A DNA stretch of 64,000 nt from NCBI GenBank assembly GCA_038734945.1, contig JAVYOA010000009.1, positions 186,001-250,000 of the forward strand. The letters run 5' to 3'. Every line of letters begins with the position of its first letter. Positions within the stretch are counted from its first letter, which is position 1. Below the pieces are notes generated by a model. The model saw only the letters and a program-made list of their open reading frames with translations. It searched no databases and was not told the DNA's origin. This document shows, one piece after another, positions 5,479 through 17,101 of the stretch. This DNA is from Fervidicoccaceae archaeon. Lineage in GTDB: Archaea; Thermoproteota; Thermoprotei_A; Sulfolobales; Fervidicoccaceae. The position numbers and the translations under genes are program-made.

Positions 5479-5633
5479 CTGAAGAGAATATAAGCTTCTT
5501 TCATCGTCATTCCAAAAATTTTCTGAAAAACAGCAAGTTTGCCAAATGGCTGCAGCTGTTTAAGTAAGCAAACTATAGTTTTAAATATAAACATTTAAAA
5601 ATGATATTTTATGGCAATAAAGGTGGGTATCCC
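5479..5633. promoter_or_regulatory. Divergent promoter region, sufC and Mo-hydroxylase operon 1
   Basis: For the rightward operon, a TATA-like tract TTTAAATATA lies at 5580-5590, which places transcription start near 5610-5615. An AGGTGG Shine-Dalgarno follows at 5621-5626, 7 nt before a TTG in frame with the large-subunit gene. This order (TATA, start site, SD, TTG 5634) argues against the upstream ATG at 5601. For sufC, a leftward TATA-like sequence (GCTTATATTC on the minus strand) lies around 5488-5497. Confidence 0.45.
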
Positions 5634-7964
5634 TTGGCTTCTATTGACTTGGAAAGGCTAATGAACAAATGGCTTCAGGCATCAGAATTCTATGTGGTTG
5701 GGAAAAGGGTGGAAAGAACAGATAGTCTAGAGAAGGCTATGGGTATAACAAAATTTACCGAGGATTTCTATATGAAAGACATGCTATTTGTGAAGCAGAT
5801 CCTCAGCAAGCATCCTCATGCCAGGATAGTTTCCATAGATGATTCTGAAGCTAGAAGAGTAAATGGATTTTTGCGAATCGTCAGGGCCTCAGATATACCT
5901 GGAGAAAATCAGGTAGGTTATTCGCTCCCTGATCAACCACTTCTTGCTCACAAAAAGGTCAGATATGTTGGTGAACCAGTAGCCTTGGTGATAGCTAGAG
6001 ATTTCGAATCTGCTATAGAGGCTTCCAGGCTTGTAAGCGTAAGCTATGAACCCATTCCCTATATCATTAATGCAGAGGAGGCAATCAGAGAGAAAAACAT
6101 CCTAGTTCACGAGGAGAACGGCTCCAACATAGCATTCAGGACAAAGGTGAGGAAGGGAGACGTTGAAAAGGGATTTTCCGAATCTCATGTGGTTGTTGAA
6201 AACACATATAGAACAGCTCATCAAGAGCATGCCTATTTGGAAACTGAGGCCGCTATAGCAATTCCAGGCCTCGAAGGAAAGCTCACAATAATTTCTCCTT
6301 CTCAGTATCCTCATCTTACACAAAAAATTGTTTCCAAGGTACTTGGTCTGCCGGCGAGTTCTATAAGAGTTATCGTTCCATATTTAGGAGGGGGATTTGG
6401 TGGAAAAGACGATCAGGGCCCGCTCACATCCGCGAAGGCAGCTCTTGTTTCATATCTTACAGGAAAGCCATCCTTTATAATATATTCAAGAGAAGAGAGC
6501 ATTGCAGTTCATCCAAAAAGAGAAGCCACAACAATAAGGTACAAGAGCGGAGCAGATGCTGAAGGAAAGTTGAAGGCAATAGAAGTGGAAATAATTCATG
6601 ATACAGGGGCATATGCAAACAGAGGACCATTCATACTTTGGAGAGCCACCATGCATGCCTCAGGGCCATATGAGGTGCCCAATGCGAAGGTAGACGGTTA
6701 TTGCGTCTATACTAACAAAATCTATCAGGGATCATTCAGAGGCTTTGGAAACCCCTCGGTCCAGTTCGCAGCGGAAAGCCAAATGGACATTCTTGCTGAG
6801 AAGCTGGGAATTGATCCCCTTGACATTAGACTTAAGAATATTCTGACTCCTGGAGCAAGAACGATCACTGGGCAGGAGCTGGATTCTTCTGTAGGAATTA
6901 AGGATGCCCTAGAGGCTGTTGCAAAAAGAGCAGAATGGAGAGAAAAACGAATTGCATATTCAAGAGAGAGAGGCACACTCAGGAGGGGAATTGGAATAGG
7001 AGTGGCTTGGCATGGAATAAGTACATCTAGAGGTGTTCCCGACTGGTCTGCAGGAACTGTTAAAATAGAACCAGACGGTTCCGTTTCGGTTCTCGTAGGA
7101 ATTGTTGAAATAGGACAGGGATCTCCTTCGTCTTCACACAGACAGATAGTCGCTGAGGTGCTGGGAGCACCTCTCAACATGGTTCACGTCTACTTTGGAA
7201 CTTCAGATGCTCCCGACGGAGGTGCAACCCATGCCTCTAGAGGTACAGGCATAGGTGCTATCGGCATCTATGTTGCATCTATAGAACTTAGAGAGAGACT
7301 AAATGCTCTTGCAGCAAAGCTGTTGGAAACTGAACCAGAGGATATTTCAATTAGCGACGGGATAGTATCATCGAAATCTGATCCCTCTAAGAGGATTAGT
7401 TGGACCGAGCTTATTAAGAAAGCATATTCTAGCGGTATCAACATGACAGCTTCAGGGTATTTCTTTTTACCGAAAGGAAAGTTTTACGACGATATTGGTC
7501 AGGGATTTGCCTATATTTCCTATAGCTACATGGCATTAATAACTGAGGTCCAGGTAGATACGGAGACCGGAGAAGTGAAAGTTCTCAAAGTTTATCCAGC
7601 AATTTCTGCTGGGAAGGTGATAAATCCAGTGCAGGTAGAGGGTCAGATCGAGGGAGGGTTTGTCCAGGGCATGGGAATGGCCCTCATGGAATCTCTCTCT
7701 TTCAATGAAAGAGGAGAGATAGTGAACAAAGACCTAACTGATTATGTGATTCCATCGTCACTCGATGCTCCAGAAATAGAAGAGCCAATTTTCATAGAGG
7801 ACAGATTCAAGTATGGTCCTCTAGGAGCAAAAGGAGTCGGTGAGATGGCTCTAATACCTGCTCCCGCCTCTATAGCAAATGCCGTATCGCATGCTATTGG
7901 AAAAAGAGTAGTGGAACTACCTATTACAGCAGAAAAAGTTCTAAAATTAATAGAGGGGAGGTGA
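5634..7964 (+). CDS. Xanthine dehydrogenase-family molybdopterin large subunit, copy 1
   Basis: This is the Mo-cofactor subunit of a three-component xanthine dehydrogenase/aldehyde oxidase-type hydroxylase. Domain order is the a/b hammerhead (first ~120 residues, ending in the VGEPVALVIA region), then the Mo-binding domains. It retains the family motifs GGGFGGK, GSFRGFGNP, EIGQG (GQG at ~7113-7121) and the C-terminal GPLGAKGVGE, whose Glu is the catalytic base. It lacks the CSFR loop of CO dehydrogenase, so a purine, aldehyde or N-heterocycle substrate is more likely than CO. The start TTG 5634 has AGGTGG 7 nt upstream; ATG 5601 and ATG 5661 are alternatives. It is followed directly by FAD and 2Fe-2S subunits in L-M-S order. 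The true substrate cannot be read from the sequence. Confidence 0.88.
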   Translation: MASIDLERLMNKWLQASEFYVVGKRVERTDSLEKAMGITKFTEDFYMKDMLFVKQILSKHPHARIVSIDDSEARRVNGFLRIVRASDIPGENQVGYSLPDQPLLAHKKVRYVGEPVALVIARDFESAIEASRLVSVSYEPIPYIINAEEAIREKNILVHEENGSNIAFRTKVRKGDVEKGFSESHVVVENTYRTAHQEHAYLETEAAIAIPGLEGKLTIISPSQYPHLTQKIVSKVLGLPASSIRVIVPYLGGGFGGKDDQGPLTSAKAALVSYLTGKPSFIIYSREESIAVHPKREATTIRYKSGADAEGKLKAIEVEIIHDTGAYANRGPFILWRATMHASGPYEVPNAKVDGYCVYTNKIYQGSFRGFGNPSVQFAAESQMDILAEKLGIDPLDIRLKNILTPGARTITGQELDSSVGIKDALEAVAKRAEWREKRIAYSRERGTLRRGIGIGVAWHGISTSRGVPDWSAGTVKIEPDGSVSVLVGIVEIGQGSPSSSHRQIVAEVLGAPLNMVHVYFGTSDAPDGGATHASRGTGIGAIGIYVASIELRERLNALAAKLLETEPEDISISDGIVSSKSDPSKRISWTELIKKAYSSGINMTASGYFFLPKGKFYDDIGQGFAYISYSYMALITEVQVDTETGEVKVLKVYPAISAGKVINPVQVEGQIEGGFVQGMGMALMESLSFNERGEIVNKDLTDYVIPSSLDAPEIEEPIFIEDRFKYGPLGAKGVGEMALIPAPASIANAVSHAIGKRVVELPITAEKVLKLIEGR

Positions 7965-7969
7965 GTAAT

Positions 7970-8845
7970 TTGTTCTATTCACTGCCAAGCTTCGAATATA
8001 CTAGAGCAGATAGCTTAAGCGTGGCATTAGATTTACTGAAGGAAGGGAATTGGAAGCTGCTGGCAGGAGGAACAGATCTGCTAATCGATATAAAGACTGG
8101 GAGGCAAGCTCCAAAAAAACTATTGGATATATCCAGGATCAATGAGATAAGATATGTTAGGCCAAACGAAAATATAATTAGAATAGGGGGAGGCTCAAGG
8201 CTTCAGGAATTGCTCGAAAATATTGTAATCAGAGAGAGGTTGCCATTGCTGGCATCAGCTATACGAGAGATGGCGTCTTGGCAAATAAGAAACGTTGCGA
8301 CGATTGCTGGGAATCTCTGCAATGCATCTCCAGCAGCAGACTCAGCCCCTCCCCTTCTTGTCCACGAAGCAAAAGTCCGGTTGGCCTCAACAGCAGGTTC
8401 CAGAATTGTCCCTCTTAAGGACTTCTTCATAGGTCCTAGGAAAACGGTAATGAGAGATGACGAGATGCTAACAGAGATAGAAGTCCCGTCTCTTGAGGGA
8501 TATTCTTACTGGTACTATAAGCTGGGAAGGAGAAATGCTTTTACCCTCTCTGTAGTCTCTGTTGCTGTTGCCTTGAAAATAGAGGATGGGAAATTCTCAG
8601 ATGTTAGGATAGCCCTCGGATCTGTGGCACCCAAACCTGTAAGAGCCCTCAGCGTCGAGGAGGAACTGGTTGAAAGAAATGCGGATGTCTCATTAGCCTA
8701 CCGGGCAGCCGAGCTCGTCGAAAGGGACATATCGCCTATCAGCGATGTAAGGGCTTCCGCTGATTATAGAATGAAGGTTTCCAAGGTACTTATAAAAAGA
8801 GCTCTTATAGAATCGATAAAACGCTCAAGAGGTGAGCTGCTCTGA
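7970..8845 (+). CDS. Mo-hydroxylase FAD-binding medium subunit, copy 1
   Basis: This is the FAD subunit (PCMH/CoxM family, ~291 residues) that passes electrons between the 2Fe-2S subunit and its acceptor. The two flavin-binding motifs are present: AGGTDLLIDIK near residue 30 and TIAGNLCNASPAADSAPP near residue 110. The C-terminal CO_deh_flav_C region includes ALGSVAPKPVRA. A GTG at 7961 overlaps the large-subunit stop, but it lies inside the GGGGAGGTGA Shine-Dalgarno (7955-7964), so TTG 7970 is the better start. Bases 8303-8377 are identical to 13461-13535 in the second FAD-subunit gene, although the flanks have diverged. Confidence 0.9.
   Translation: MFYSLPSFEYTRADSLSVALDLLKEGNWKLLAGGTDLLIDIKTGRQAPKKLLDISRINEIRYVRPNENIIRIGGGSRLQELLENIVIRERLPLLASAIREMASWQIRNVATIAGNLCNASPAADSAPPLLVHEAKVRLASTAGSRIVPLKDFFIGPRKTVMRDDEMLTEIEVPSLEGYSYWYYKLGRRNAFTLSVVSVAVALKIEDGKFSDVRIALGSVAPKPVRALSVEEELVERNADVSLAYRAAELVERDISPISDVRASADYRMKVSKVLIKRALIESIKRSRGELL
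8303..8377 (+). repeat. 75-bp perfect repeat, copy 1 (with 13461-13535)
   Basis: This segment is identical base for base to 13461-13535, begins ATTGCTGGGAATCTCTGCAA and ends AAGCAAAAGTC. Both copies lie at the same place in paralogous FAD-subunit genes and encode the second flavin-binding motif. Identity stops abruptly on both sides: the preceding base is G here and A there, and the next bases are CGG here and ATC there. Synonymous sites are identical across 25 codons, unlike the rest of the genes, which points to gene conversion. Confidence 0.9.
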
Positions 8846-9306
8846 AAGTTTCCTTTATCTTAAATGGAGAAAAAATTGAGGTCGATGTCCCTCCCAATGA
8901 AATCCTCCTGGATACATTGAGATTAAGGCTCGGGGTTAAGGGGCCAAAGAGAGGGTGTGAGAGGGCTGAGTGCGGCACATGCACTGTGCTGCTGGATGGA
9001 AAGCCCGTTTATTCATGCAATATCTTAACAGTCCAGGCTGATGGAAGGGAAATAATGACTATTGAGAAGATCTCTCAGGAAGCTCTTGGCAGAAAGATAG
9101 CAGAATCATTCTCCAGGGAAGGGGCAGTTCAGTGCGGCTTCTGCACCCCAGGGTTCGTTACTGTAGCATATGCCCTAGCTGCGTCCAATTCAAATCCGAA
9201 TGAAGCTGAAATTAGAAAGAGCATTGAAGGTAATCTATGCAGATGCACTGGCTATAAAAAAATTGTTAATGCAATAATGAAGAGCCTGTCTTCTGAGTCT
9301 AAGTGA
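8842..9306 (+). CDS. Mo-hydroxylase 2Fe-2S small subunit, copy 1 (probable CTG start)
   Basis: This is the iron-sulfur subunit with two [2Fe-2S] clusters. The plant-type cluster motif reads C-ERAE-C-GT-C and then a later C (YSC). The C-terminal helical cluster has QCGFCTPG and LCRCTGYKKI. The frame is open back to a TGA at 8833-8835, and the conserved N-terminal strand (KVSFILNGEKIEVDV) is encoded before any ATG, GTG or TTG; the first of these, TTG 8917, would delete it. CTG at 8842 overlaps the preceding stop as CTGA, has GAGGTGA at 8829-8835 six bases upstream, and gives 154 residues, exactly the length of the paralogue at 14000. CTG initiation is therefore inferred. The gene is convergent with and overlaps the amidohydrolase gene. 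Confidence 0.87.
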   Translation: MKVSFILNGEKIEVDVPPNEILLDTLRLRLGVKGPKRGCERAECGTCTVLLDGKPVYSCNILTVQADGREIMTIEKISQEALGRKIAESFSREGAVQCGFCTPGFVTVAYALAASNSNPNEAEIRKSIEGNLCRCTGYKKIVNAIMKSLSSESK

Positions 9307-10642
9307 ATTTCTTCAACTGCCTTCCAGAACCCTTCCTTCTTATTTCTCCGTTCTCCACTATTATCTCTCCTCTAAGCAACGTCTTTTCAACCTTTCCCTT
9401 CAGCTTCATTCCTATGAAGGGAGTAATGGTACTCTTTGTTATCAACCATTCCTCCTTTACAATTGTTTCTCCATTTTTATCTACTATTACTATATCTCCA
9501 TCGCTTTTTCCAGGAATCAGCTCTCCCTTCATCGGCCATATTCCCAGAAGCTTTGCTGGATTCCTTGAGAGCAATCTTGGAATGTCGGTCAGAGAGATCA
9601 GGTTATCTAGAGCCAAGTTGAGGAGAGAAGGAAGCAGCAACTGCACCCCAATGAATCCAGCCGGAACATCCCATATGCTCTCCCTGCTTTTTTCCTCAGG
9701 AGAATGTGGAGCATGATCTGAGCCCACAGAATAGATGACTCCAGACTTGATGGCCTCTAGCAATGCCTTTCTATGCTCCTCCTCTCTTATAGGAGGATTC
9801 ACCTTCAACTTACTGCCAAAAGTACTGTAATGGCTTCTATCAAAATAGAGGTAGTGGGGGCAAGTTTCCCCCGTCATTCTTACACCCTCCTCGAAAGCTT
9901 TCAATAAAAAGTCCAGAGTTCCCTTTGAGGAAATGTGAGCTACATGCGCCTTTCCCCCAGTCTCCTTTGCTATCATATAAATCTTTGCTACGGCGATTTC
10001 CTCCGTAATAGGAGGTCTTGAAAGGAGATGAGCTGAAGGATCATTCCTTCCTGATGACTTCATTCTCTCGGTGAACAGGCTAATGAGAGAACTATCCTCA
10101 GCATGAAAAACAACTGGAAAATCGTACTTTTTCGAGAGCTCCAGAGCCCTGTAAATCGTAGAATTATCCGGAGATGGAAGATTCCCAGTAGTAGGGCCAA
10201 GGAATGCCTTAAATGCGATCGCACCTTCCTTGAGCATATACTCCAATTTATTTACGCTCTCATCTGTTAGGACTCCGTAGAGAGCAAAATCAACTGTTGC
10301 CTTCTTTTTCAATAGCTCAGCTTTCTCAGCAATTCTTTCTCTACTATCAACAGGCGGTATAGTATTTGGCATCTCAGCGACAGTAGTTACTCCCCCCACA
10401 GCAGCAGCCATTGTTCCATGTTCAAAATCATCCTTATATTCAAGTCCTGGTTCCCTCATATGCACGTGCTCATCAATTATTCCCGGGAAAACAAGCTTTC
10501 CAGTAGCATCTATAACCTCATCTGTCCCTTCTCTCGATAGCTGCTTCCCAATTTTTTCGATCTTGCCATCTGAAATTAGAATATCACCATCGAATACCAG
10601 CTCTGGAGTGACTATGTGTCCACCCTTTATCAAAACATTCAT
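9299..10642 (-). CDS. Dihydroorotase/allantoinase-family cyclic amidohydrolase
   Basis: This 447-residue zinc amidohydrolase opens cyclic amide rings. Visible metal and substrate residues are HVHMREPG (H59, H61, R63), the carboxylated-Lys region IAFKAFLGPT (~residue 147), VVFHAED, HVAHIS and GSDHAPH. The REPGxExKDDF and MPNT elements favour dihydroorotase. The region after GSDHAPH (IWDVPAGFIGVQ) is closer to allantoinase-type relatives. It sits between two Mo-hydroxylase operons, on the opposite strand and 8 bp overlapped with the first. An ATCase gene lies 3.8 kb away, so it may be biosynthetic PyrC or a catabolic hydrolase of purine-ring products. ATG start; divergent promoter shared with the second hydroxylase operon. 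Confidence 0.82.
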   Translation of the reverse strand: MNVLIKGGHIVTPELVFDGDILISDGKIEKIGKQLSREGTDEVIDATGKLVFPGIIDEHVHMREPGLEYKDDFEHGTMAAAVGGVTTVAEMPNTIPPVDSRERIAEKAELLKKKATVDFALYGVLTDESVNKLEYMLKEGAIAFKAFLGPTTGNLPSPDNSTIYRALELSKKYDFPVVFHAEDSSLISLFTERMKSSGRNDPSAHLLSRPPITEEIAVAKIYMIAKETGGKAHVAHISSKGTLDFLLKAFEEGVRMTGETCPHYLYFDRSHYSTFGSKLKVNPPIREEEHRKALLEAIKSGVIYSVGSDHAPHSPEEKSRESIWDVPAGFIGVQLLLPSLLNLALDNLISLTDIPRLLSRNPAKLLGIWPMKGELIPGKSDGDIVIVDKNGETIVKEEWLITKSTITPFIGMKLKGKVEKTLLRGEIIVENGEIRRKGSGRQLKKFT

Positions 10643-10737
10643 GCTTTCAACCTCCCCACAAAACCATAATCCATTTTTTGCTTATAAAATATAAAAATTA
10701 AATAAAAGGAGCCCACAGTTTTTTTTAGTGATAAAGA
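10643..10737. promoter_or_regulatory. Divergent promoter between amidohydrolase and Mo-hydroxylase operon 2
   Basis: A 95-bp AT-rich spacer separates two divergent start codons. For the rightward operon, a TATA-like CTTATAAAATATAAAA lies at about 10680-10695, which predicts transcription from about 10715, a leader of roughly 20 nt, and a weak GTGA site just before ATG 10738. The same tract read on the other strand can serve the amidohydrolase gene, so the two units could be co-regulated. Confidence 0.45.
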
Positions 10738-13101
10738 ATGCAGAAAGAAAAAGGAAAGTTCAAATTTATTGGGACAGATATTCCCAGAAGAGATGCTGAT
10801 AGCAAGATAAGGGGAAGCTTGACATATGCCTCCGACATATCTTTCCCGGGAATGCTCTACGGAAGAATAGTATACAGTCCCTACCCGTTTGCCGATATTG
10901 AAGAAATAGATCCTTCTGAAGCCGAAAGGATGGGAGCTGTGGTTATTACTCCAAAGGACGTTCCGAGCAAGCCCTTCAACATAAGGCTGGTTAGCATAAA
11001 CGAGGTAACATTCAAGGATTGGAGCATTCTAACTCTAACCCCAAGATATCTGGGAGATCCTGTAGCAGCAGTAGCTGCTTCATCAGAGGAGCTAGCTCAG
11101 AAAGCTGCTGAGCTCATCAAATTCAAGTTCAGAAGAATTATGGAACCGATAATCGACCCCTTTGATTCACTGAAGGAGTCATCTCCTCCAATTAGAGAAA
11201 AAATACTGAAGGGAGAAGAGGAGGTCGAAATAAAGAGAAACATAGGAGCATCCCTGAACTATTCAGAAGGAGACATAGAAAGAGGGGAAAAGGAAGCAGA
11301 GATAGTTCTCGAGAGAAATTTCAAAACAAGCAGAAGATATCATTTCCAGCTTGAGCCCAAGGTTTCGGTTTGTTTTCCTGAATCCGATGGAAGGATTTCA
11401 ATATATACAACAACACAAACAATTCACAATACAAGGATATTGGTAGGCCAAGTTTTCGGAATCCCTCTATCTCGCATAACTGTGAAGAGAATTCCAATAG
11501 GAGGATCCTTTGGATCCAGCATTCAAACCAATTTGGTAACTCTCATAAGCGTAGCTCTCTGCCTCAAAGCAAAAAAACCTGTAAAAATTTCCCTGACTAG
11601 AGAGGAAGACATGTATGATCACTCTGACTACGAGATGTATCTGAAGCTGAGAATTGGTGCTAAGAGGAGTGGGGAGCTGACGTTCGGAGAACTTGAGAAC
11701 ATAATGGACATAGGAGCGCATCAAGTCCAAGCTTATCCATTGCTTGGAACAGCGCTGGGGTGGTTTGTATCCCTATACAAATGGAAAAACATCAAATACA
11801 GAGGTCTAGCAGTTTATACAAACAAAACACCATCCTGTGCTTTCAGGGGATATGGAGCCCCCCAAATCTCTTGGGCAGTTGAAACAATTATGGATGAGCT
11901 TGCTGAGGAGCTGAAAATTGATCCTCTTGAGCTAAAGCTGAAGAACTACGTCGGTCTAGGGGATGTTTTCTGGGGGCAAGGGCCCTCAGTAAGGAGCATA
12001 ATAAAGTCGGATGGAGTCAGGGAACTTGTAGAGAGAGGAAAACAGCTAATTGGCTGGGATAGAAGACAGCCGCCTCACTTGAAAAGAGGAAGATTCAGAT
12101 CCGGAATAGGATTTGGCAGATCCTTCCACACATCCGGGGCAGGCGGTCCAATATCTGGGGAAGTGATCGATTATACTGGAGCTACTTTGAAGTTAAACGA
12201 GGATGGAAGCCTTGATTACATAACAGCACTACAGGATCACGGCGGCGGCACATTGGAAGCCCACGTAAAAATAATTGCTGAGGAGCTTGGCGTTCCTCCT
12301 TGGCTAATAAATGTAGTCCCATCTGACACAAGCATTTCCCCCTATGACGTTTGCACACATGCTTCAAGAGGGACATATGTTGGAGGAGAGGCTGCGAGGA
12401 GGGCAGCTCTTGCCGTCAAATCCAAGATATTTGAGTATGCAGCCAGAATATTATCCAAGGCTGTAAACCCCGAATCGTTCAGGTTAGGCTACGATGAAAG
12501 CCTTGAGCAAGCAGTTGTCTACATAGAAGGCATGAAGGATATGAAAATTCCTCTATCAGAAGTAGCTAGAATAGGTTGGCAGAGAAACTGGGGAACCATA
12601 GCTTCCACGATAAGCTATAGAGCAACATCAGCTCCCCCCACATTCACTGTGTTCTTCGTCGAAGTCGAAGTCGATACATATACAGGAAAGGTTATCCCTA
12701 AAAAGGTAGTAGCCGGGGCAGATCTTGGAACTGTCATCAATCCAAAGCTGGCAGAGGGTCAGCTGCATGGCGGATTCGTTATGGGATGGAGCATGGCCTA
12801 TCTGGAGGACACAGAATATGATAAGAGAACAGGAGAGCTTTTGAACAGAGGTATGGTTGTCGACTACAAGATACCAACATTCCAGGATGCTCCAAAACTG
12901 GAGGACTTCAAAGTAATTTTTGCAGAGACAAGTGAACCTACAGGCCCCTACGGAGCAAAAGGATTGGGCGAAGCAGCTTTGAATCCTGTCGCAGGAGCTG
13001 TGGCCAATGCCATCTACAACGCTATTGGCATTAGATTCTACAGGCTTCCAATAACCCCCGAGAAGATTCTTCAGTCCCTAACCGGTGGTGAGACGCAATG
13101 A
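10738..13101 (+). CDS. Xanthine dehydrogenase-family molybdopterin large subunit, copy 2 (divergent motifs)
   Basis: This 787-residue paralogue of the copy-1 large subunit has the same domain order and keeps AFRGYGAPQ and the C-terminal catalytic GPYGAKGLGE. Two conserved motifs differ. The GGGFGGK loop reads GGSFGSS, and the GQG loop that contacts the Mo centre reads HGGGT (G502-G504, at 12241-12249), with Gln replaced by Gly. This predicts a different substrate from copy 1 or an altered Mo ligand environment, not necessarily loss of activity, since the catalytic Glu remains. Start ATG. The medium subunit begins in the ATGA overlap at 13098. No XdhC or MobA maturation gene is in the window. 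Confidence 0.87.
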   Translation: MQKEKGKFKFIGTDIPRRDADSKIRGSLTYASDISFPGMLYGRIVYSPYPFADIEEIDPSEAERMGAVVITPKDVPSKPFNIRLVSINEVTFKDWSILTLTPRYLGDPVAAVAASSEELAQKAAELIKFKFRRIMEPIIDPFDSLKESSPPIREKILKGEEEVEIKRNIGASLNYSEGDIERGEKEAEIVLERNFKTSRRYHFQLEPKVSVCFPESDGRISIYTTTQTIHNTRILVGQVFGIPLSRITVKRIPIGGSFGSSIQTNLVTLISVALCLKAKKPVKISLTREEDMYDHSDYEMYLKLRIGAKRSGELTFGELENIMDIGAHQVQAYPLLGTALGWFVSLYKWKNIKYRGLAVYTNKTPSCAFRGYGAPQISWAVETIMDELAEELKIDPLELKLKNYVGLGDVFWGQGPSVRSIIKSDGVRELVERGKQLIGWDRRQPPHLKRGRFRSGIGFGRSFHTSGAGGPISGEVIDYTGATLKLNEDGSLDYITALQDHGGGTLEAHVKIIAEELGVPPWLINVVPSDTSISPYDVCTHASRGTYVGGEAARRAALAVKSKIFEYAARILSKAVNPESFRLGYDESLEQAVVYIEGMKDMKIPLSEVARIGWQRNWGTIASTISYRATSAPPTFTVFFVEVEVDTYTGKVIPKKVVAGADLGTVINPKLAEGQLHGGFVMGWSMAYLEDTEYDKRTGELLNRGMVVDYKIPTFQDAPKLEDFKVIFAETSEPTGPYGAKGLGEAALNPVAGAVANAIYNAIGIRFYRLPITPEKILQSLTGGETQ

Positions 13102-14003
13102 GCGTGCTCAATAGGATCAACACGAGAGTTATACCAGCATCCTTTGAATACCATGAACCAAAAACCCTCGATGAAGCTCTGAAGCTCTTGAATGAACTTG
13201 GAGATGCTGCTAGGATTCTAGCTGGTGGAACAGATCTGCTGGTCAAGATGAAGAGCAGGTCAATCGAGCCAAAACACATCATTAACATAAAGAGAATTGA
13301 GGGACTTAGATACATATCTGAGGAAGGAGGACTTATAAAGATAGGAGCTCTAACAACATGGAGAGATCTTGAGAGATCCCAGCAGATTAGACAGAAGCTT
13401 CCAGCTCTCTACGATGCTGTTAAATCAATGGGGAGTGTTCAAGTAAGGAGTATGGCCACAATTGCTGGGAATCTCTGCAATGCATCTCCAGCAGCAGACT
13501 CAGCCCCTCCCCTTCTTGTCCACGAAGCAAAAGTCATCGCTGTCAGCCTTAGGGGGAAGAGAACCATTCCAATAGATCAGCTCTTCCTATCTCCAGGTAA
13601 AACTTCTCTATTGCCAAGTGAAATGCTCATTGAGATAGATATACCGCTTCCTCCTTACAACAGCTCCTCATCGTTCCTGAAACTGGCAAGGACTTCCATG
13701 GATCTTGCTAAAGCCAGTGCAGCAGTGTATATAAAAATGAATGGGGATGTGGTGGAAGATGCAAAGATAGCATTGGGTTCCGTGGCACCAACTCCAATCT
13801 TGGCTAAGAAAGCTGCTGCTGAGCTAATCGGAAAGAAAGCTTCAGAAGAGGTAATTTCAAAAGCTTCCAGCATTGTCGCAAGTGAAATTTCCCCAATTGA
13901 TGATATACGGTCAACGGCATTCTATAGAAGAAAAGTTTCTCCTATCTTGGTTTCCGATGCAATTCACATGGCAATTTCTAGACTTCGAGGTGATGGAGCT
14001 TGA
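13098..14003 (+). CDS. Mo-hydroxylase FAD-binding medium subunit, copy 2
   Basis: This is the 301-residue FAD subunit of the second hydroxylase. It carries AGGTDLLVKMKS near residue 42 and TIAGNLCNASPAADSAPP near residue 122, with the CO_deh_flav_C domain after that (ALGSVAPTPILAK). It starts at an ATG overlapping the large-subunit stop (ATGA) and ends in an ATGA overlap with the 2Fe-2S gene, so the operon is translationally coupled. Outside bases 13461-13535 it is only moderately similar to copy 1. Confidence 0.9.
   Translation: MSVLNRINTRVIPASFEYHEPKTLDEALKLLNELGDAARILAGGTDLLVKMKSRSIEPKHIINIKRIEGLRYISEEGGLIKIGALTTWRDLERSQQIRQKLPALYDAVKSMGSVQVRSMATIAGNLCNASPAADSAPPLLVHEAKVIAVSLRGKRTIPIDQLFLSPGKTSLLPSEMLIEIDIPLPPYNSSSSFLKLARTSMDLAKASAAVYIKMNGDVVEDAKIALGSVAPTPILAKKAAAELIGKKASEEVISKASSIVASEISPIDDIRSTAFYRRKVSPILVSDAIHMAISRLRGDGA
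13461..13535 (+). repeat. 75-bp perfect repeat, copy 2 (with 8303-8377)
   Basis: This is the partner of the identical tract at 8303-8377 and lies at the homologous place in the second FAD-subunit gene. The two copies are in direct orientation and about 5.2 kb apart, so the tract is also a possible site for homologous deletion of the intervening amidohydrolase and large-subunit genes. Confidence 0.9.
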
Positions 14004-14464
14004 TGATCAGTTTTAATCTCGATGGAAGAAAAGTCTCGATTGACATTGAGCCGAATGAGCTTCTACTGAATGTCCTCAGAGATAGGCTTGGAGTCAACGT
14101 TCCCAAATATTCCTGTGGGATAGGAGAGTGTGGGGCATGCACTGTTCTCATAGACGGAGAACCCCATCTTTCTTGTTTAACTCTGGCTGTGGACGTCAAT
14201 GGAAAGGATGTCAGGACGGCTTCAGGATTGGATGAAAAAGATCTCTCTATAATTTCGAAGACCTTTGCTGAGGAGGGAGCAGTGCAGTGCGGCTACTGTT
14301 CCCCAGGAATCGCTGTTATGACGTACAGTCTTCTGCAAGAAAAAGAGAAAGTAAGTGAAGATGAAGTGAGAGAGTATTTGAGAGGAAATCTCTGCAGATG
14401 CACCGGCTATGTAAATATCGTGAGAGCTGTTCTAAAGGCAGCTGAAATGAGGGGAAAAAAATGA
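14000..14464 (+). CDS. Mo-hydroxylase 2Fe-2S small subunit, copy 2
   Basis: This is the 154-residue [2Fe-2S] subunit of the second hydroxylase. The first cluster motif is C-GIGE-C-GA-C plus a later C (LSC). The second cluster region has QCGYCSPG and LCRCTGYVNI. ATG 14000 overlaps the medium-subunit stop as ATGA, with GAGGTGA at about 13987-13993 upstream. Its own stop overlaps the start of the ATCase-like gene, also as ATGA. It is the standard against which the CTG start of copy 1 can be judged, since both proteins are then the same length. Confidence 0.93.
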   Translation: MMISFNLDGRKVSIDIEPNELLLNVLRDRLGVNVPKYSCGIGECGACTVLIDGEPHLSCLTLAVDVNGKDVRTASGLDEKDLSIISKTFAEEGAVQCGYCSPGIAVMTYSLLQEKEKVSEDEVREYLRGNLCRCTGYVNIVRAVLKAAEMRGKK

Positions 14465-15384
14465 AAGAGCTAAAGGGAAGAGACATACTTTCATCATTTG
14501 ACTTCGATAGAGAAACTGTAGAGCATCTATTTGCCGTTGCTGATTATCTGAAAAAAGAGCTCAGTGAGAGAAAGCTCAAAATTGCTGAGGGAAGAATACT
14601 GGCAACAGTTTTCTTGGAGCCAAGCACGAGAACTAAGCTGAGCTTCCAGATGGCAATGCTCAAGCTCGGAGGGAGTTACATAGACTTTCTACCTGAAACG
14701 AGCTCCCTCCAGAAGGGAGAAAGCGACATCGATACACTGAAGATCATAGATAACTACGACCCGGATCTGATAGTGTTGAGGCAAAGCAAGCCGTTCTTTC
14801 CACACAAAATCAAGGATGAGCTGAGAGCACCTATCATAAATGGGGGAGATGGCACTAATGAGCATCCGACGCAGGCATTGCTGGATGCCTATACTATTTG
14901 GAAAGAGATAGGATCGCTCGATGGTTTGAAGATCGGCTTCATGGGAGATCTGAAGTATGGTAGAACCGCACCGTCTCTCTCATATCTTCTCTCTTTCTTC
15001 AAGGGAGTAAAGATCTTCTACATTTCTCCGAAGGAGCTGAGAATAAGAGACGAGGTAAAGGAAAAAATCAAATCAAGGGTAACTTTTCAGGAGTTCGAAA
15101 GATTAGAGGAAATCTGCGAGGACCTTGACGTTCTCTATGTAACTAGACTGCAAAAGGAGAGGTTCAGCAATCAGGAAGACTATGAAAGGCTAAAATCAAG
15201 CTATATTGTGGATCGAAGAACTCTGTTAAAATTGAAAAGAATTCCAATAATAATGCATCCCCTCCCAAGAGTTTGGGAGTTGGCAACAGATGTGGACTCC
15301 CTTCCTCAGGCTAAGTACTTTGAGCAGGCTAGAAATGGGATGTTTATTAGAGCAGCCCTTATCAAAGAAATTTTAGGTCTGTAA
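14461..15384 (+). CDS. pyrB: Aspartate carbamoyltransferase catalytic chain
   Basis: This 307-residue protein carries the full ATCase residue set: carbamoyl-phosphate loop STRT (S55-T58), 80s loop SSLQKGES, HPTQ, the ATCase-type MGDLKYGRT, YVTRLQKERF (aspartate-binding Arg/Gln), HPLPR and a final QARNGMFIRAALI. ATCase condenses carbamoyl phosphate with aspartate in pyrimidine synthesis. Two things are odd. It overlaps the 2Fe-2S gene by ATGA, placing it fourth in a molybdenum hydroxylase operon, and no pyrI regulatory chain follows. It may be the biosynthetic enzyme in an unusual operon, or a carbamoyltransferase recruited to catabolism as proposed for ygeW beside xdh genes in E. coli. The residues favour aspartate as acceptor. 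Confidence 0.88.
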   Translation: MKELKGRDILSSFDFDRETVEHLFAVADYLKKELSERKLKIAEGRILATVFLEPSTRTKLSFQMAMLKLGGSYIDFLPETSSLQKGESDIDTLKIIDNYDPDLIVLRQSKPFFPHKIKDELRAPIINGGDGTNEHPTQALLDAYTIWKEIGSLDGLKIGFMGDLKYGRTAPSLSYLLSFFKGVKIFYISPKELRIRDEVKEKIKSRVTFQEFERLEEICEDLDVLYVTRLQKERFSNQEDYERLKSSYIVDRRTLLKLKRIPIIMHPLPRVWELATDVDSLPQAKYFEQARNGMFIRAALIKEILGL

Positions 15385-15499
15385 TTTCATGAAAAGCGTA
15401 ATACTGAAGGATTAAAAAAGGAAAGCAGAAAGAAGCATATGTTGCTTAGACTCCTTTTCATAAATTTTTTAAAATAATTATAGAATGAGCTCTTTTCTG

Positions 15500-15640
15500 C
15501 ATTATATTAGCTAATTTTTAAATTATAAACTAACACATGATCAACATATCATATTATTGAATTTCTTCGCTTCTTCTTTCGGAACAGATTTAGTTGCTCA
15601 GGTCATAAGTTATGATCCTCGTTCGAGGGTGAAACGTTAA
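15500..15640 (+). promoter_or_regulatory. Promoter and structured 5' leader of the purine permease gene
   Basis: A TATA-like tract (TTTTTAAATTATAAAC) lies at about 15514-15530, which predicts transcription from about 15550 and a leader near 90 nt, longer than usual here. The leader holds an inverted repeat CATAAGTTATG (15604-15614) and the hairpin CCTCGTTCGAGG (15617-15628). The 3' arm of that hairpin overlaps the Shine-Dalgarno GAGGGTGA (15625-15632), 8 nt before the ATG. Folding would partly hide the ribosome site. Confidence 0.4.
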
Positions 15641-17101
15641 ATGAGCCTCTCAAACATGCTGAATAGATTCTTCGAAATCGATAAAAGAAATACAACCATA
15701 AAAATTGAAATAATAGCAGGAATAACTACTTTCCTGTCTATGGCATACATACTTTTTGTCAATCCTACAATACTTACAGAAGGTTTTTCAATTGCTCTTC
15801 ATCAGTCGCTTGGAATACCAATTGGGGATCCTCTGCCTGAACAATATCTCAATCTCCTCTATAATGTCAGATTGGGATTTACAGCGGCTACTGCTATTTC
15901 TGCTGCTGTTGCCACGCTAGTTATGGCTCTATACGCGAGACTGCCTTTTGCCCTTGCCCCAGGAATGGGAGAAAACGCATTTGTGGCCTACACGATAATC
16001 CCTCTATTCAACGAACTCATTCTCTCTAGCGGGGCAGTTCAAGGACCGGCTGCTTCTCAGCTTGCTATATATTTGGCCTTAATATCTGTTCTCTTCAACG
16101 GAATTCTATTTTTAATTTTCTCAATAGGAAAAATCAGAGAATTCATAATAAACTCCGTTCCCGAATCTCTCAAGCTAGGAATCGGCATTGGAATAGGTCT
16201 TTTCATAACGCTAATAGGATTTGCTGATGTTGGGATCGTCAAGGGGGGAATAGCTACTCCAATAACATTCAACTCAAGTGCTCTAACGAGCCTTCCCTTC
16301 TATATAGGAATGCTCAGCTTCTTAGTCGCCTCAGTACTTCTAGTAAAAAAGGTAATAGGAGGATTCATAATAGCAATCCTATCATCGACATTTGTAGCAG
16401 CCCTCCTTGGAATGATCTCCCTACCATCTTCAATTGTTGTAGCCCCCTCCCTTACAACATCTATTCTAAACGAGCTGCCAAAATCATTTTATCTCTATCT
16501 ATCTCTATTCGGCATAGGTTTTCCAATAGCCTTCTCTCTCTTCCTAGTTGATTTCTTCGATGGCATAGGAACGATAACAGGACTCGCTACCAAGGCAAAT
16601 CTTCTTGAGAACGGAAGAATAGTAGGAATAAACAGGGCTCTTATAACTGATGCTTTTGCATCAATACTAGCGCCATTCTTTGGCACATCTACGGTAGTTA
16701 TCTACATAGAGAGCGCTTCCGGAATAGAGCAAGGAGGAAGGACAGGTCTCACTGCCTTGGTTGTGTCATTGCTCTTCTTCATCTCTGTACTGCTTACTCC
16801 ACTGTTCACTGCAATACCATCCTACGCTACTGGAGGAGTTCTTATGCTGGTGGGCTTGCTTTTTCTTTCCCTATCTGGCAATCTTGCTAAGCTAGAGGAC
16901 TACAGCGAGCTTATCCCAGCATTTGTCACAATAACATCAATTCCGTTCTCGTACAGCATTACTACTGGAATAGGGCTTGGCTTCATAACATATACGCTCA
17001 TTAAGCTGCTCTCGGGCAAATTCAGAGACTTGAAACCGGGAGTGCTGATAATAACCCTGCTCTTCGCGATCTTCTTCGTGCTCACGGCAAAGGGGTTCTA
17101 G
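15641..17101 (+). CDS. AzgA/NCS2-type purine (guanine/hypoxanthine/adenine) permease
   Basis: This is a membrane transporter of 486 residues with about 12-14 hydrophobic helices. Family marks are the N-terminal RFFEIDKRNTTIKIEIIAGI, the MAYILFVNP segment, GMGENAFVAY (equivalent to the G-x-N-AFF motif of AzgA permeases), the LFLVDFFDGIGT motif in the middle and a terminal bundle of hydrophobic helices. Characterised relatives (AzgA, PbuG, YjcD) are proton-coupled importers of adenine, guanine or hypoxanthine. The location just after two Mo-hydroxylase operons supports uptake of an oxidisable purine. It has its own promoter and a structured leader. Confidence 0.87.
   Translation: MSLSNMLNRFFEIDKRNTTIKIEIIAGITTFLSMAYILFVNPTILTEGFSIALHQSLGIPIGDPLPEQYLNLLYNVRLGFTAATAISAAVATLVMALYARLPFALAPGMGENAFVAYTIIPLFNELILSSGAVQGPAASQLAIYLALISVLFNGILFLIFSIGKIREFIINSVPESLKLGIGIGIGLFITLIGFADVGIVKGGIATPITFNSSALTSLPFYIGMLSFLVASVLLVKKVIGGFIIAILSSTFVAALLGMISLPSSIVVAPSLTTSILNELPKSFYLYLSLFGIGFPIAFSLFLVDFFDGIGTITGLATKANLLENGRIVGINRALITDAFASILAPFFGTSTVVIYIESASGIEQGGRTGLTALVVSLLFFISVLLTPLFTAIPSYATGGVLMLVGLLFLSLSGNLAKLEDYSELIPAFVTITSIPFSYSITTGIGLGFITYTLIKLLSGKFRDLKPGVLIITLLFAIFFVLTAKGF

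Follow-up and report, generated by a model that had tools for sequence, protein, structure and literature searches.

Two FAD-subunit genes and their common tract

The window, by which the whole 64-kb stretch of analysed DNA is meant, harbors two operon-like rows of genes, both arranged in the order large subunit, FAD subunit and [2Fe-2S] subunit. The following features are used throughout, where the genes of the large and [2Fe-2S] subunits served as unconverted controls:

5601-7964, plus strand: Mo-cofactor (large) subunit, operon A, unconverted control (Pfam MoCoBD_1/2)
7961-8845, plus strand: gene A, FAD subunit of a molybdopterin hydroxylase (xanthine dehydrogenase family), first operon (FAD_binding_5, 9e-49; CO_deh_flav_C, 3e-25)
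8303-8377, plus strand: identical tract, gene A copy, codons of TIAGNLCNASPAADSAPPLLVHEAKV from I on (75/75 identical to 13461-13535)
8842-9306, plus strand: [2Fe-2S] subunit, operon A, unconverted control (Pfam Fer2_2; start set by the tool at TTG 8917)
10738-13101, plus strand: Mo-cofactor (large) subunit, operon B, unconverted control (Pfam)
13098-14003, plus strand: gene B, paralogous FAD subunit, second operon (Pfam FAD_binding_5, 1e-50; CO_deh_flav_C, 6e-23)
13461-13535, plus strand: identical tract, gene B copy (75/75 identical to 8303-8377)
14000-14464, plus strand: [2Fe-2S] subunit, operon B, unconverted control (Pfam)

Both FAD subunits contain the two domains of the XdhB/CoxM-type molybdenum hydroxylases, FAD_binding_5 and CO_deh_flav_C, and have relatives in the PDB (4zoh_B and 1ffu_C). 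The nearest NCBIfam families are XdhB and the beta subunit of glyceraldehyde dehydrogenase, with all curated cut-offs missed; for the XdhB equivalog, A scores 240.7 and B 228 against a cut-off of 310.

For the [2Fe-2S] gene of operon A, no ATG, GTG or TTG is present ahead of the conserved start (8842-8916), and the frame is open upstream only to a stop at 8833-8835. Its translation therefore likely starts at the CTG at 8842, overlapping the stop of the FAD gene. The hydroxylase operons are adjoined by an amidohydrolase (9299-10642, minus strand), and an aspartate/ornithine-type carbamoyltransferase (14461-15384) as well as a gene of the xanthine/uracil permease family (15641-17101) lie nearby. 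The neighbourhood from 9299 to 17101 might be a cluster for the use of purines or hydantoins.

The two tract copies are in frame, span 25 codons and are spaced by 5158 bp. They form the sole direct repeat of at least 40 nt in the window, and no third copy turned up when the 1.34-Mb genome was searched with this segment. A preliminary description had claimed a perfect 75-bp identity including all synonymous sites, ending at once on both sides, within genes that are otherwise only moderately similar. This is borne out: 75 of 75 nt and 25 of 25 codons agree, the first differing bases are those given there, and outside the tract A and B share 47% of their DNA. The codon comparison proposed there as a check gives, against the complete agreement inside, identical synonymous codons at 33 of 89 conserved residues outside (0.37), which is not above the value for A and B of unrelated genomes (0.36). 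The match of 25 out of 25 codons has a probability of ~10^-11 under the codon usage of both genes. An identity of 75 nt was reached in none of 1000 codon-preserving shuffles, the longest run being 32 nt, and chance is thus excluded as the origin of the tract. The same description had pointed out that the tract, as a direct repeat, could delete 5.2 kb; the repeat is real, but nothing was seen that shows such a deletion.

Tracts and trees across the order

Within the order, 214 genomes were searched, yielding 33 sets of A and B including the window, which were codon-aligned; tract coordinates were set by the maximum-scoring segment. Identical A/B runs of 70-156 nt are present in 12 genomes and all lie at a single location, the block around TIGGNLCNASPAADTAPPLL. 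The longest are those of G169 (156 nt), G034 (155), G171 (115), G046 (113), G155 (101) and G161 (98), followed by G165 (80), G132 (78), the window (75), G020 (74), G116 (72) and G163 (71), with the rest being shorter. If one mismatch is tolerated, G046, G171 and G161 likewise have tracts of 155-156 nt. The observed run exceeds all 1000 codon shuffles in 21 of the 33 genomes. No tract is present in G119, G121, G122, G156 and G037.

In G018 and G170, contigs (L088, L089, L086 and L087) end inside the tract with exact overlaps of 127 and 133 nt. Since these short-read assemblies break at the tract, as they would at a true repeat, its frequency in draft genomes is probably underestimated.

Phylogenetic trees of the 33 genomes differ between flanks and core. 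In the flank tree, an A clade is separated from a B clade by one label change (support 99/95), and not a single A-B pair of the same genome is present. The core tree, built on 96 nt and weakly resolved in places, contains 27 A/B label changes, of which at least 15 are forced by well-supported branches, and 18 same-genome A-B pairs including that of the window (99/62). Here, the congeners of the window, G001 and G002, each pair their own A with their own B separately. Of the 66 genes, 42 have their closest match in the core in the paralogue of the same genome and not in an orthologue; in the flanks, this holds for 0 of 66.

Core synonymous identity of a genome's own A-B pair is 0.782, in comparison to a mean of 0.386 after shuffling of the B partners (10,000 rounds; sd 0.025, maximum 0.507). 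Ten-codon windows over the block give an own-genome synonymous identity of 0.82 versus 0.37-0.38 for A against B of other genomes. Furthermore, tracts of sister species differ: G046 and G169 share 65 of 81 core nt, whereas A and B within G169 share all 81, so that homogenisation went on after speciation.

Taken together, own-genome likeness, a duplication that predates the species, occurrence in separate lineages and sharp edges were found, as expected for recurrent concerted evolution. Since A and B are split in the flanks, pair by genome in the tract and differ in their tract codons among species, gene conversion is supported as the sole reading of the window tract that fits all data, in agreement with the recent conversion between diverged FAD-subunit genes that had been proposed for the window. 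The same segment has been homogenised repeatedly on separate lineages, with the remainder of both genes kept distinct.

The preliminary description had pictured a single short, non-reciprocal exchange between tandem operons. The exchange stands, but at least 15 conversions took place and a tandem arrangement is not required. The two genes are arranged in tandem in, among others, the window, its congeners G001 and G002, and G034, whereas they occupy opposite strands in G046, G161, G163, G116 and G010 and different large contigs in G155; since divergently oriented as well as unlinked copies convert too, tandem order is dispensable. Between inverted copies, a crossover would lead to an inversion and not to a deletion.

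The direction of transfer, for which a comparison with orthologues had been suggested, is mixed among genomes. The right part of the G034 tract is nearer to A of its sister (48 versus 41 of 69), leaning toward A to B, and the core of G116 is nearer to B of G010 (71 versus 62 of 81), leaning toward B to A. For the window tract there is no donor signal, because its congeners are themselves homogenised at the tract.

Outside the order, G408 displays a 41-nt run and 20 of 23 identical core codons between A and B, so that the hotspot may predate the order or extend beyond it. Neither such a run nor such a core codon match was present in the pairs of G269, G303, G343, G348, G385 and G502, likewise from outside the order.

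Edges, mechanism and competing explanations

For the edges, codons are numbered relative to the motif Thr codon (8300-8302 in A):

8279-8281, plus strand: codon -7 of gene A, Trp; the longest tracts of other genomes have their left edge here
13437-13439, plus strand: codon -7 of gene B, Val
8438-8440, plus strand: codon +47 of gene A, Arg; in seven other genomes, the longest tracts have their right edge here
13596-13598, plus strand: codon +47 of gene B, Gly

Trp is present at -7 in A of all 33 genomes and in B of 6, and left edges often lie at -6, directly after this codon. The six B genes with Trp belong to the g61 group (one genus), in which the tract begins at -9 in G155, thereby crossing -7, and at -7 in G154. 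On the right side, seven genomes (G034, G046, G161, G163, G165, G169 and G171) have their edge at +46.7 to +47. Codon +47 is Arg in A (one Lys) and Gly or Lys in B, and within any genome the two are never identical. An exact run necessarily ends at some difference, so a lone edge proves nothing; the weight lies in the recurrence of the same two edge codons in separate genera. These edges could reflect either a limit by selection or the point where similarity ends.

The exchange is specific for the FAD subunit. No comparable tract was found in the partner genes, where the longest runs are 32 nt in the [2Fe-2S] genes (31 genomes) and 37 nt in the Mo genes (24 genomes), with own/cross synonymous identities of 0.465/0.372 and 0.436/0.357, respectively. 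The best 60-nt window across genomes reaches 0.77 in the FAD block versus 0.70 and 0.67 in the partner genes, and the longest identical protein run is 12 versus 9 and 7. This somewhat higher likeness of the FAD block suggests a seed for recombination, although the difference is modest. A third paralogue with a similar motif has little or no tract in the same genomes, and the same was observed for the Sulfolobaceae-type paralogues. Given the third paralogue, conservation of the motif alone may be insufficient to create the hotspot.

On the sequence evidence, the tracts are very probably explained best by non-reciprocal homologous recombination, i.e. ectopic gene conversion, between the anciently diverged FAD-subunit paralogues. 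Because the segment with the second FAD-binding loop (T-I-G/A-G-N...ASPAAD..PPLL) is nearly identical as protein in both enzymes, the two genes never lose a stretch of DNA there that is similar enough to be used. RadA-dependent strand invasion would occur within this conserved patch, followed by repair as a short patch without crossover. Conversions reaching Trp at -7 or Arg versus Gly/Lys at +47 would be lost to selection, and this purging at paralogue-specific edge residues would keep the tracts at or below ~156 nt.

RadA was present in all six genomes searched. Short-patch, non-reciprocal conversion has been described in Sulfolobus acidocaldarius, and hyperthermophilic archaea have been described as devoid of MutSL homologues (reviewed in PMC4471258). 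Absence of the MutS-MutL pair might make recombination between diverged DNA easier. Here, MutL was absent from all 18 genomes searched, MutS-type proteins were found in three of these, including that of the window, as tandem MutS-like genes, and NucS was found in 14 of the 18 and is absent from the genus of the window. The tandem MutS-like genes in three genomes and NucS in most others would count against a role of missing mismatch repair.

In the genome of the window, which lacks MutL, the MutS-like genes are two adjacent MutS_V-type reading frames of >500 aa each (G000:C9:385444-387365, L133); similar pairs are present only in G001 and G130 among the 18 genomes searched. The RadA of this genome (L132, 241-1764, minus strand; G000:C9:16500-18400) displays a small intein-like insert at the Walker A loop (GEFGTGK-C...LHN-TQ), and the Rad51 matches in the congeners G001 and G002 are broken at about the same place.

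Among the competing explanations, one holds that selection and not the recombination machinery makes the hotspot, since both enzymes need the same FAD module, for example for a shared electron acceptor, with the result that converted variants have an advantage and become widespread. The restriction to one module of one subunit, with partner genes lacking the tract, fits to this, as do the edges at residues that are kept different and the long tracts of the seven genomes named above, which in their right part homogenise residues that are otherwise not conserved. However, since most of the core is identical at the protein level from the outset, conversion often leaves every residue unchanged and then requires no selection, and several genomes, the five listed above, have no tract. 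This explanation is regarded as rather unlikely. Put more specifically, two functionally different molybdenum hydroxylases would be selected to share one interchangeable FAD module, which conversion re-synchronises while the edges are kept different; we consider this a tentative idea. If true, the FAD module would evolve as one unit carried in two genes.

A site-specific break in the motif, at an endonuclease target or a fork-stalling site, could start the conversions at a location that is constant over the order, and would be compatible with the third paralogue and the partner genes being largely spared. The tract DNA differs among species, which argues against a fixed target sequence and renders such a break improbable.

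A constraint at the nucleotide level, such as codon choice, RNA structure or an overlapping element, would keep the copies identical without any exchange, and the protein block is indeed highly conserved in A as well as in B throughout the 33 genomes. Nevertheless, core codons agree between genomes no more than elsewhere in the gene (0.37-0.39 versus ~0.36), and the window tract shares only 11 of 23 (A) and 7 of 23 (B) synonymous codons with its congener G002; the constraint is thereby ruled out for practical purposes. Identical codons in both copies of distant relatives had been named beforehand as an observation that would speak against conversion. They were found within genomes and not across them, and identity of this kind is the mark of concerted evolution rather than of constraint.

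That an assembly or binning artefact copied the segment into the other gene is hardly credible, since, although assemblers are error-prone at the tract, as the broken short-read assemblies of G018 and G170 illustrate, such breaks are the behaviour of a true repeat, the tract codons vary from genome to genome, and the tract is present in many independent assemblies, including the single-contig genomes G034 (155 nt) and G116 (72 nt).

Relation to known systems and significance

Gene conversion of this kind is already known from mtrA, RF1/RF2 and a set of 26 concerted genes, whereas for the FAD genes it was not found reported: a literature search for conversion of xanthine dehydrogenase paralogues in archaea yielded no paper.

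Like the FAD genes, mtrA-1 and mtrA-2 of methanogens are archaeal paralogues that have long been homogenised over one domain while the rest differs (PMC4632066). There, homogenisation covers the entire MtrA domain of a gene pair sharing one operon, in contrast to a unit of 25-53 codons within a domain, located in separate and sometimes unlinked operons and flanked by DNA of ~50-60% identity. RF1 and RF2 also underwent partial conversion of a functionally interchangeable segment between ancient paralogues in varying direction, but this comprised two events seen at the protein level (PMC4530459), compared with at least 15 in the FAD genes, many of which are so recent that the synonymous codons still agree.

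The 26 prokaryote genes with recurrent concerted evolution resemble the present case in that own-genome paralogues are closer than orthologues across an order. They were, however, detected with whole-gene trees and are described as similar across almost their entire length, and neither xanthine dehydrogenase nor FAD-subunit genes are mentioned among them (PMC6053082). A whole-gene method would probably miss the FAD case, because the flanks support the split of A and B. Sulfolobus acidocaldarius, finally, is likewise a thermophilic archaeon that lacks the MutS-MutL pair and shows short tracts of non-reciprocal exchange, and its machinery is the one proposed for the FAD genes; its tracts stem from laboratory crosses between alleles (PMC4471258), and the FAD case is a natural exchange between diverged paralogues. 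The FAD case stands out by how small the unit is, how many independent events occurred and how strongly the sequences on either side have diverged.

For studies based on sequence comparison, the case is a warning that such genes give misleading trees and identity scores if their conserved motifs are used, and that events below the size of a gene can escape scans for concerted evolution at the gene level. For the biology of these archaea, the FAD-subunit genes represent a natural, replicated record of ectopic recombination, in which a single site was converted independently at least 15 times, in recent as well as older stages, between genes of otherwise only ~50-60% identity. This allows asking how much similarity archaeal recombination needs, what limits its tracts and whether selection or machinery stands behind hotspots.
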